A stretch of 64,000 nucleotides of DNA from an uncultured Bryobacteraceae bacterium (lineage in GTDB: Bacteria > Acidobacteriota > Terriglobia > Bryobacterales > Bryobacteraceae): assembly GCA_938003835.1 (NCBI GenBank), contig CALKXJ010000020.1, forward strand, positions 1 through 64,000. Reading direction: 5' to 3'. The notes beneath the pieces were generated by a model. That model did no database searches and was not told where the DNA came from. It was given only the letters and a program-made list of their open reading frames with translations. Positions within the stretch are counted from its first letter, which is position 1; each line of letters begins with the position of its first letter. The translations under genes and the position numbers were made by a program. Positions 47,255 through 49,261 of the stretch are shown in pieces.

Positions 47255-47263
47255 ATTATATCA
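47255..47263 (-). promoter_or_regulatory. Extended -10 promoter for the ffh operon
   Basis: TGATATAAT on the minus strand is a perfect TATAAT preceded by TGn, the extended -10 form that does not need a good -35. Initiation near 47248 would give a leader of about 100 bases before ffh. It overlaps the stop codon of the upstream protease gene. Confidence 0.55.
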
Positions 47264-48121
47264 ATTCCGGCCGGCTCCCGGCTCCGGCAGCGGAGCCTGC
47301 GGGTCCGGCGAGAGCACGCAGACGAATTCGCCGATGACGCGGAACCGCTGCTCCTCCGGAACGAGCTCGAAAGCTTCGAACTCCGGGTTGAGGGGTTCCA
47401 GGCGGATCCGTTCGTGCTCCCAGGTGCCGTCTTCGCGGACGCGTTTCACAGACCGGTAGATCTTCACCGTGTAGCGCTGGCCCCCCTCCTCGGATTCGCC
47501 CAGATCCTCGATGAGGAGCTTGCGGCCCTGGCGCGAGCCGGCGACGCCCGCGCGGAAGACGCAGAGCGAGCCGTCGGGGATCTCCGGCTCCATGGAGCGC
47601 CCCACCACGCGCGCGACGAACATGTTCTGCTCCAGCCGCAGACCGGGCGGCGCCTCGATCCAGCCCTCGGCCTCGACCTCCATGAGGTCGCCAAAACGCC
47701 CGGCGGCGGCCCGGCAGGAGTAAACCGGAAGGTGCGTGCGAAACGGCTGCACGGTGGCCGAGACGTGCTTGTTGTAGAGCCACTGAAGCGTCGTTTCCGG
47801 ATTGCCGAGAAGGATCGGTCGGCGCTCGGAGATGCGCAGCGTGTTCGATAGCGTCTCCTCGAGCCAGCCGAGAAACTCCTCCGGGGTCTGCTCGCGGCTC
47901 TTGACGCGCAGGTCGTCCTCGAGTAACTTGAGGAGCTCGGCATCCTCGGGAGCGGCGATGCGGTCCCAGTCGCGCCGAAGCCGCACGCTGATCTGGCGCC
48001 CCTCCGGATCGTAGAGGAGGACGCCGGCCGCCTCCGCCGGACGGCCCGGCAGCGCGATCTCGAGCACCGAGTACTCCCCCAGCCGGGTGGCGACGACTGT
48101 CGAGGGTATGCTCCGGGGCAC
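47261..48121 (-). CDS. LexA-like S24 autoprotease with a non-HTH N-terminal domain
   Basis: A protein of about 286 residues. The C-terminal half is an S24/LexA-UmuD peptidase: VVGRSMEPEIPDG carries the Ser (S176) and YTVKIYRS the Lys (K220). A likely self-cleavage Ala-Gly (A140-G141 in RAAAGRFG) lies 35 residues before the Ser, almost the spacing in LexA. The N-terminal 135 residues (LGEYSVLEIALPGRP, VLLYDPEGRQISVRL, EETLSNTLRI) show no helix-turn-helix and are unfamiliar to me. The GTG at 48121 is a best guess; the frame is open further upstream, under the VWFA gene. It sits between that gene and ffh. Confidence 0.75.
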   Translation of the reverse strand: MPRSIPSTVVATRLGEYSVLEIALPGRPAEAAGVLLYDPEGRQISVRLRRDWDRIAAPEDAELLKLLEDDLRVKSREQTPEEFLGWLEETLSNTLRISERRPILLGNPETTLQWLYNKHVSATVQPFRTHLPVYSCRAAAGRFGDLMEVEAEGWIEAPPGLRLEQNMFVARVVGRSMEPEIPDGSLCVFRAGVAGSRQGRKLLIEDLGESEEGGQRYTVKIYRSVKRVREDGTWEHERIRLEPLNPEFEAFELVPEEQRFRVIGEFVCVLSPDPQAPLPEPGAGRN

Positions 48122-48159: not shown

Positions 48160-49179
48160 TCAAGGGGCATACGGGTAGTACCCCTTGCGGTGCCTGACGA
48201 TGACATTCGGCAGCGCCACCTCGACCCGGAGCTGGCGAAAGATGCGGGGCTCGTCGGTCGAAGTCGGCACGTAGCGCAGGATGTATTGCGTGGTGATCTC
48301 GCCCTGGAGCGCCGCGATGGAGTTGAAGACGGCCCGGGCGATCTGACTGGCGTAGCCGCCCGTGCCTACTGTGATAGCGTAATTGCCGGCGTCGGAGGGT
48401 TTCGACAGATAGCCGGAAACGTCCTGATACGGGTTGTCGAGCGGGTATTCGACGCGGCCGCCCGTCTCGCGCGCCAGCTTCAGCAGGTTGCTCTCCTCCT
48501 CGGCGTAGAAGGAGAACGAGACCGTGCTCATGGCGTGAATCGTCACCAGGTTGCGCTGGGCCAGCTCGAGCACCTCGGCGAGCGTCTTCGAGGAGGCGTT
48601 GTCGTGCCCGTCGCCGATGATGACGATCACGCGGCGCGGCTCGATCGGCTCGCCCTCGACCAGTTGCCGATTGGTGCACGCCATGTAGATGGCGTCGAAC
48701 AGCGCCGCGCCGCCGCCCGGCTTCATCTTGCGGATCTGCTCGACGATCTCGCTCGGGTCGTGCGTGGTGTTCACCAGCAGCTCGGGCTGGTTGCTGTAAG
48801 CGATCAGGTAGCCGCTGAAGCGCGGGTCTTCGGGCATCAGGGCCAGCACCAGATCCTGCGCCGCGCTCTGGAACGTCTTCCAGTGCAGCCGCTGGGCGTT
48901 ACTCTGATCGATCAGGAAGCCGATCACCACCGGCTGGTTGCGCTCGGCGCTGAAGTAAGCGATCTTCTGCTCGACGCCCTGGTCGAAGATCTTGAAATCT
49001 TTCTCGGTGAGGTTGGAGACGAAGCGGCCCTGCTGGTCGGTCACGGTGACCGGGACGACCACTTCGTTGACGTGGACGCGTATCGGCCCGGGCGCCTGCT
49101 GGGAGCTCTGGCCGGCGAGGCCCCCCTGATAAATCAGGAGCGCCACCGCCACCGCGACCGGAAGGAATCGCCCCAGCAT
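48160..49179 (-). CDS. VWFA-related acidobacterial secreted protein
   Basis: A protein of about 339 residues with a signal peptide (LPVAVAVALLIYQGGLAG). The N-terminal strand region (VHVNEVVVPVTVTDQQGRFVSNL, then DFKIFDQGVEQKI) precedes a von Willebrand A domain whose MIDAS starts GFLIDQSNAQ, with the second Ser of DxSxS replaced by Ala. VIVIIGDGHDNAS supplies the later Asp. It ends with the HRKGYYPYAP motif typical of the acidobacterial VWFA-related family, whose function is unknown. I chose the ATG at 49179 for the signal peptide and a nearby AAGGA. Confidence 0.88.
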   Translation of the reverse strand: MLGRFLPVAVAVALLIYQGGLAGQSSQQAPGPIRVHVNEVVVPVTVTDQQGRFVSNLTEKDFKIFDQGVEQKIAYFSAERNQPVVIGFLIDQSNAQRLHWKTFQSAAQDLVLALMPEDPRFSGYLIAYSNQPELLVNTTHDPSEIVEQIRKMKPGGGAALFDAIYMACTNRQLVEGEPIEPRRVIVIIGDGHDNASSKTLAEVLELAQRNLVTIHAMSTVSFSFYAEEESNLLKLARETGGRVEYPLDNPYQDVSGYLSKPSDAGNYAITVGTGGYASQIARAVFNSIAALQGEITTQYILRYVPTSTDEPRIFRQLRVEVALPNVIVRHRKGYYPYAP

Positions 49180-49203
49180 GGAGATCCGGTTTCCTTGCCC
49201 ACA

Positions 49204-49209
49204 ATTATA
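49204..49209 (-). promoter_or_regulatory. Perfect -10 (TATAAT) for the VWFA gene
   Basis: TATAAT on the minus strand, 24 bases before the ATG at 49179, with AAGGA between. No convincing -35 is seen. It is paired with a divergent promoter at 49262-49291. Confidence 0.5.
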
Positions 49210-49261
49210 ACGCGCTGCTCTGCCGCTCCGTTGCACCGCAGCGGGGACGGGAGGCGGGCAC

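Follow-up and report, generated by a model that had tools for sequence, protein, structure and literature searches.

A DUF3037 protein with a LexA-type C-terminal domain in Bryobacteraceae: a candidate self-cleaving partner of an unlinked HipA-like kinase

LexA, UmuD and the lambda CI repressor share a C-terminal domain fold in which a Ser-Lys dyad and a GxSMxP motif are combined with an Ala-Gly pair located 35 residues before the serine. LexA and CI carry a helix-turn-helix (HTH) at the N-terminus, whereas UmuD has a short N-terminal arm, lacks an HTH and is activated by self-cleavage. In Escherichia coli LexA, the serine and the lysine are separated by 37 residues. The Ser-Lys chemistry of this peptidase family (S24) is shared by signal peptidases (S26). 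Proteins with a DUF3037 domain have been described in another context, as partners of HipA-like kinases. The DS-6 system, which is the same as HipAD and PDC-M66, consists of a HipA-like kinase and a DUF3037/DUF1829 protein and was proposed to be a toxin-antitoxin system, according to the accessible part of the report (PMC13092281). For Retron-Sda1, the HipA-DUF3037 pair is reported to be sufficient for defence, and removing DUF3037 is toxic (PMC12548924). In the open-licence literature, we recognised no report of a fusion between DUF3037 and S24 domains or of a self-cleaving antitoxin of such a type.

We analysed a stretch of 64,000 nucleotides (hereafter the window) from an uncultured bacterium of the Bryobacteraceae. 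On its minus strand, a gene (47261..48121, with a GTG start at 48121 and the stop at 47261) encodes a protein of 286 amino acids in which two Pfam domains were detected. Residues 32-120 (47762..48028, minus strand) match DUF3037 (PF11236, E 1.1e-6), modestly, with 29.3 bits for a cut-off of 22.6, and residues 132-267 (47321..47728, minus strand) match the Peptidase_S24 module, corresponding to the LexA C-domain (PF00717, E 1.1e-9), with 38.5 bits for a cut-off of 23.3. The protein is thus a LexA-type Peptidase_S24 C-domain joined to DUF3037, a domain partnering HipA-like kinases, and the N-terminal part, which a first-pass annotation made from the sequence alone had called an unknown domain, can now be named. 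This fusion is the sole DUF3037 match in its own genome, which encodes two S24 proteins, the fusion and an ordinary LexA specified by a separate gene. The likeness to the HipAD/PDC-M66 systems lies in the DUF3037 domain, in the presence of a HipA_2 kinase in the same genome and in the existence of S24-less paralogues located beside HipA. The fusion differs from them in that the S24 domain replaces the usual C-terminal half of the protein, and the PADLOC model PDC-M66B left it unmatched, as did every other PADLOC family (0 families matched). It also differs in that its gene is not linked to hipA and is nearly universal in the window's family.

The LexA-type geometry proposed in the first-pass annotation was borne out, with all residues as it had placed them. 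The predicted self-cleavage site Ala140-Gly141 (47699..47704), the predicted nucleophile Ser176 (47594..47596) and the predicted general base Lys220 (47462..47464), all on the minus strand, are spaced by 35 residues from the site to the serine and by 44 from the serine to the lysine, as compared with 37 for the latter distance in E. coli LexA. We aligned 90 nearly full-length homologues from 139 matching genomes, including the window's own copy. They comprised 30 initial loci and 60 of the 109 remaining genomes, chosen for complete matches, and split or partial matches were excluded. Apart from the window's own copy, these homologues are 37-64% identical to the window protein (tblastn). Residues A139, A140, G174, S176, M177, P179 and K220 are invariant (90/90), and position 141 is occupied by Gly in 81 sequences and by Thr in nine, so that the expected conservation of the Ala-Gly pair was found with a Thr variant at its second position. 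Among the 286 columns, 18 are at least 97% identical, and G33, S92 and P132, all before the cleavage site, belong to them. Within the DUF3037 part, G33 is kept in 89/90 and S92 in 88/90 homologues; with an N-domain constrained in this way, the earlier suggestion of a protein that lost its target domain is unlikely.

That none of the sequences has lost the site, the nucleophile or the base favours an active self-protease, because plain dimerisation would not require that the site and the dyad be kept. We consider it probable that the fusion protein cleaves itself. The same observation bears on the reading in which the S24 domain works constitutively in processing or folding, or serves for plain dimerisation, and answers to no stress signal. 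Such a reading would fit with the LexA box that was not found before these genes (see below) and with a trigger that we infer, and a site and dyad present in 90/90 sequences argue against its dimerisation variant; on balance we regard it as unlikely.

A structural model of the fusion protein was built from 78 sequences (the window's and 77 relatives) and reached a mean pLDDT of 88.5 over the full length. The C-domain matches the LexA mutant 1jhe_A with a Z score of 15.0 and an rmsd of 2.3 Å over 121 of 124 residues, and the match spans the cleavage region, with residues 130-272 of the model aligned on residues 75-198 of LexA. Z scores of 14.4 were obtained with RecA-bound LexA chains, 14.1 with lambda CI and 10.6 with UmuD'. 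A signal-peptidase-like relative (S26) had been put forward as the alternative identity of the protein. The shared chemistry of the two families is accompanied by a weak fold similarity, with Z scores for signal peptidases of at most 6.9. However, the LexA match at Z 15.0 includes the cleavage region, the Ala-Gly/Thr site is conserved, and the NCBIfam model sigpep_I_arch gave 11 bits, below its cut-off of 51.85, which makes the S26 assignment extremely improbable.

Where UmuD has its short arm, the fusion has a domain that is folded over about 128 residues, with a pLDDT above 90 in most ten-residue blocks, and that precedes the S24 part. Modelled alone (pLDDT 85.4), this N-domain adopts an alpha/beta arrangement in the order strand-strand-strand-helix-helix-strand-strand-helix. 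No HTH or winged helix was seen in either the full-length or the N-domain-only model, in agreement with the absence of a DNA-binding N-domain claimed in the first-pass annotation. With DUF3037 in the place of the HTH of LexA and CI, the protein is not a LexA repressor proper. The N-domain model had no match in the PDB at E ≤0.001, a result that does not show a new fold. Searched by sequence, the PDB contained no relatives of the single fusion protein, and the fusion profile retrieved weak LexA matches only (3k2z, E 0.049).

Homologues of the fusion were detected in 139 of the 150 genomes of the window's family, and in 104 of the 108 good ones, mostly with a single match per genome. One named member of the family, Acidobacteriaceae bacterium KBS 96, has such a homologue. 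Among 396 genomes drawn across the phylum, of which 296 gave no match, both domains were matched only in three members of the window's family by a hand count of the rows, one of these being the window's own genome, and 30 more genomes matched the S24 part alone with more than 100 bits. In a second family of the same class (family f2, which we take to be Acidobacteriaceae), 38 of 46 listed genomes matched the fusion over the DUF3037 part alone. We also considered whether the fusion came from a phage or a plasmid and rejected this on the database matches: phages gave no match (tblastn), plasmids gave one that covered the S24 part only, and none of the 23 matches on viral contigs extended into the DUF3037 domain.

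We then looked at HipA-like kinases in the same genomes. HipA_2 was matched in 93 of 101 genomes of the family (70/74 good ones), mostly in one frame of about 280-300 amino acids, the count of 93 mixing core and accessory copies. Eight genomes have no HipA_2 match and five of the same 100 have no fusion, and the absences do not coincide; since both genes are near-universal, their co-occurrence within the family carries little weight. The window's own genome has one HipA_2 match, on contig C13 (L292:4721-5563, minus strand), and the fusion gene lies on contig C20, so the two are unlinked. We compared 36 HipA_2 loci (20 + 16) and eight best-scoring, accessory loci with flanks of about 4 kb, or shorter where a contig ended. 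A DUF3037 gene was next door to the accessory HipA_2 gene in all eight fetched loci, and the flanks fetched around the 35 core-type loci contained none; near one of these loci, L342, a weak match (E 0.012) corresponds to a low-complexity frame. L293, the remaining one of the 36, holds a divergent paralogue, and its genome (G001) has another HipA_2 match. The motif residues K37, D139, N144 and D178 of the core kinase are kept in at least 95% of the 36 sequences, L293 included. The same genomes therefore contain two orphans, a core kinase with no partner gene linked to it and a core partner domain with no kinase gene linked to it.

Family f2 presents the linked arrangement. A HipA-like gene directly precedes the DUF3037 gene in 20/20 fetched loci, and all 12 f2 kinases searched match the core-kinase profile with E 1e-81 or better. 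The one f2 kinase scanned, from locus L217, matches HipA_2 (Pfam) and PDC-M66A (PADLOC). On the partner side, the f2 proteins of L207 and L204 are recognised as DUF3037 by Pfam, the latter, the one scanned with PADLOC, also matches PDC-M66B, and a profile of the f2 DUF3037 proteins aligns with that of the fusions over 116 columns with 98.8% probability. The surroundings of the f2 pair (L204-L223) include a terminase-like cluster upstream in 16/20 loci and a portal cluster downstream in 16/20, as if the pair were carried by a prophage or an element resembling a gene-transfer agent. In one of these loci (L218), the portal passed its Pfam cut-off, which the terminase did not reach. DUF3037 relatives were also seen on three viral contigs.

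The genomes of the window's family contain five DUF3037 matches of the fusion's type that lack the S24 part, a number that excludes two matches cut by contig ends (G005 and G056). One of the five (L341) is a broken frame with no HipA, and all four intact ones of the fusion's clade (L293, L338, L339 and L340) adjoin a HipA-like gene. In a maximum-likelihood tree, the S24-less DUF3037 proteins group with the fusions (support 100/99), away from the accessory and f2 ones. In the kinase tree, the paralogues fall with the core and f2 kinases, apart from the accessory kinases (100/99); the grouping of core and paralogue kinases as one branch is weakly supported (89/51, in a tree whose bootstrap had not settled), and the divergent paralogue L293 is included under the core label in these trees. 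L339 and L340 are near-identical and come from one genus, and L338 groups with L339/L340 in both trees, so the paralogue pairs count as at least two independent places and not three. Judging from the trees, paralogues of two unlinked core genes thus appear to sit side by side at at least two independent places. Against this, catalytic-loop residues are altered in the kinases from L338 and L339, which score below the Pfam cut-off and are possibly pseudokinases; the kinase of L293 scores above it. A second HipA-like frame is present in L338. Three of the standalone DUF3037 proteins were scanned, and they were matched by the fusion profile and by no Pfam family.

We tentatively propose, with confidence a little short of even, that the fusion is a LexA-type self-cleaving partner, probably an antitoxin, acting in trans on the core HipA_2 kinase, and that stress cuts it and so eases the restraint. 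The DUF3037 domain (residues ~13-128) would bind and restrain the cell's single, unlinked HipA_2 kinase, by analogy with the way in which DUF3037 proteins are thought to act in HipAD/PDC-M66 systems. The C-domain would be a LexA/UmuD-type serine-lysine self-protease and a probable dimeriser. Under stress, most likely signalled by RecA-ssDNA filaments, the chain would be cut at Ala140-Gly141 (Ala-Thr in some species), separating DUF3037 from the C-domain and weakening or removing the restraint on the kinase. The cleaved partner would lose dimerisation or be degraded, and the kinase would then act. The cleavage, the kinase as partner, the role of RecA in triggering it and the sense in which the kinase is affected are what we infer here, next to the observed domains, site, dyad, LexA fold, near-universality, orphan kinase and paralogue pairs. 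Several points weigh against the proposal: the fusion gene lies away from hipA and beside vwa, no LexA box was found before the operon or the core hipA genes, the DUF3037 score is modest and PDC-M66B does not match, two paralogous kinases have altered catalytic loops, and position 141 is Thr in 9/90 sequences. The effect could also run in the opposite direction, with the fusion as an activator of HipA and cleavage freeing an active DUF3037 fragment, in the manner of UmuD', instead of destroying an inhibitor. The precedent of UmuD and the fold match to UmuD' (Z 10.6) agree with this idea; the published DUF3037 protein nevertheless acts as an inhibitor whose deletion is toxic, in the accessible text of that study (PMC12548924), and we hold activation to be improbable. 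As for the signal, RecA is not necessarily the trigger, because a LexA-like protein exempt from RecA control is reported in the available part of another study (PMC7101444). The stress-triggered switch imagined in the first-pass annotation can be counted as plausible, and our preferred reading, that of a restraining partner, suggests that stress may turn on a dormancy-type kinase by making its partner cut itself.

The genes beside the fusion gene in the window are vwa and ffh, and there is no hipA at the locus. The vwa gene (48160..49236, minus strand), 38 nt upstream of the fusion gene, encodes a probably exported VWFA-domain protein of the TIGR03436 family (159.8 bits, cut-off 81.25). A VWFA homologue is located upstream on the same strand in 82/90 fusion loci; the gap between the genes has a median of 49 nt, is 150 nt or less in 72 loci and exceeds 1 kb in five. 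In 60 loci with longer flanks, the VWFA gene is far ahead of all other neighbours in conservation. We therefore considered that the fusion might self-cleave on DNA damage with the upstream VWFA protein, or some other envelope process, as its partner and DUF3037 as a generic protein-binding domain. The tight association with vwa, which no other neighbour comes near, would be accounted for, as would the unlinked position of core hipA. On the other hand, the N-terminus of the VWFA protein is signal-peptide-like by eye and that of the fusion is not, which would place the two in different compartments, and the S24-less relatives of the fusion's DUF3037 domain accompany HipA. An envelope partner thus seems rather unlikely to us, and the probably exported VWFA protein has no obvious place in the HipA-partner scheme. 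The downstream gene ffh was rejected as a functional neighbour, being found in 0/169 relative loci (flanks of 1.5 to 6 kb, some genomes represented twice).

S24 modules related to that of the fusion also occur on other proteins. We collected 20 loci matching the S24 part only, from 18 genomes of other Acidobacteriota families, and a stretch of a Halomonas plasmid (L173). The serine and the lysine are present in 21/21 of these modules, and the site reads Ala-Ala-Gly in 20/21 and Ala-Ala-Ser in L227. The module of L225 is 39-65% identical to 16 others, the window's included. Most of these relatives are modules of large proteins, and 12 of the 20 were scanned with Pfam. Five are HsdR types (L225, L233, L235, L237 and L240, by Pfam), two are Type ISP proteins (L224 and L232, by Pfam) and one is a ResIII helicase (L227, by Pfam). 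In L229, the module is carried by a DEAD/MZB helicase that PADLOC matches best to Druantia DruE models, and L241-L243 are Schlafen-g3 helicases. The module is usually the last one of the protein; exceptions are L224, where it is internal, and L233, where it lies near the N-terminus. One further relative (L231) is a short frame of 177 amino acids.

These S24-tailed restriction enzymes and defence helicases share a related S24 module with the fusion and differ from it by their partners, which are HsdR, Type ISP, ResIII, DruE-like and Schlafen-g3 proteins and not DUF3037. On this sequence comparison, the window's protein belongs to a group of proteins, most of them linked to defence, that carry a putative LexA-type self-cleaving module. 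S24 tails on HsdR or on defence helicases were not the subject of any report that we recognised in the open-licence literature, and the accessible part of the Druantia paper makes no mention of S24 (PMC13192584). For the type I enzyme EcoKI, the known route of restriction alleviation is through ClpXP, according to the available text of a further article (PMC11109961). A broader picture, possible in our view yet doubtful, is that of a newly designed toxin-antitoxin switch operated by DNA damage. A core HipA-type kinase would have an antitoxin that contains a LexA-type fuse, RecA filaments would make this antitoxin cut itself, and LexA, Lon and ClpP would not be needed to free the kinase. On restriction enzymes and anti-phage helicases of related bacteria, the same fuse would make activity depend on the state of the chromosome, as restriction alleviation or as activation on damage. 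If true, DNA damage would be coupled to a growth-stopping kinase through a fuse inside the antitoxin itself. A testable function would also be gained for the DUF3037-S24 proteins of this large family of soil bacteria, and for the restriction enzymes and defence helicases with their otherwise unexplained S24 tails.

We also examined the promoters. The lexA promoter motif of the window's family is TTTCNNNTTTTNTTCGCC, conserved in 18 parsed lexA upstream regions; these came from 30 fetched lexA loci (L244-L273), 12 of which were lost to the start-finding pattern. No LexA box was found with the TTTCNNNTTTTNTTCGCC matrix in up to 1800 bp upstream of the 90 fusion genes. The best score there was 12.9, below all 18 lexA promoters (19.6-51.1), from which the matrix itself had been built, and on average the upstream regions scored close to shuffled sequences (-6.0 vs -7.5). 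The core hipA genes likewise had no LexA box upstream, with a best score of 16.0 in 36 loci vs 19.6-51.1 for lexA. SOS control of the vwa-fusion operon by a TTTCNNNTTTTNTTCGCC box was rejected on these scores, all of them below those of the lexA promoters. In the window's own genome, the TTTCNNNTTTTNTTCGCC pattern has nine matches, and a reversed-pattern control gave two. By eye, five of the nine precede lexA and frames resembling imuA, dnaE2, DUF72 and radical-SAM genes, and the remaining four have no such gene behind them. The motif observation covers loci L275-L280 besides the lexA upstream regions. RecA is encoded as well, with two strong matches (L409 and L410) in frames of 376 and 362 amino acids, one of which is on contig C31, where lexA lies about 3 kb away.
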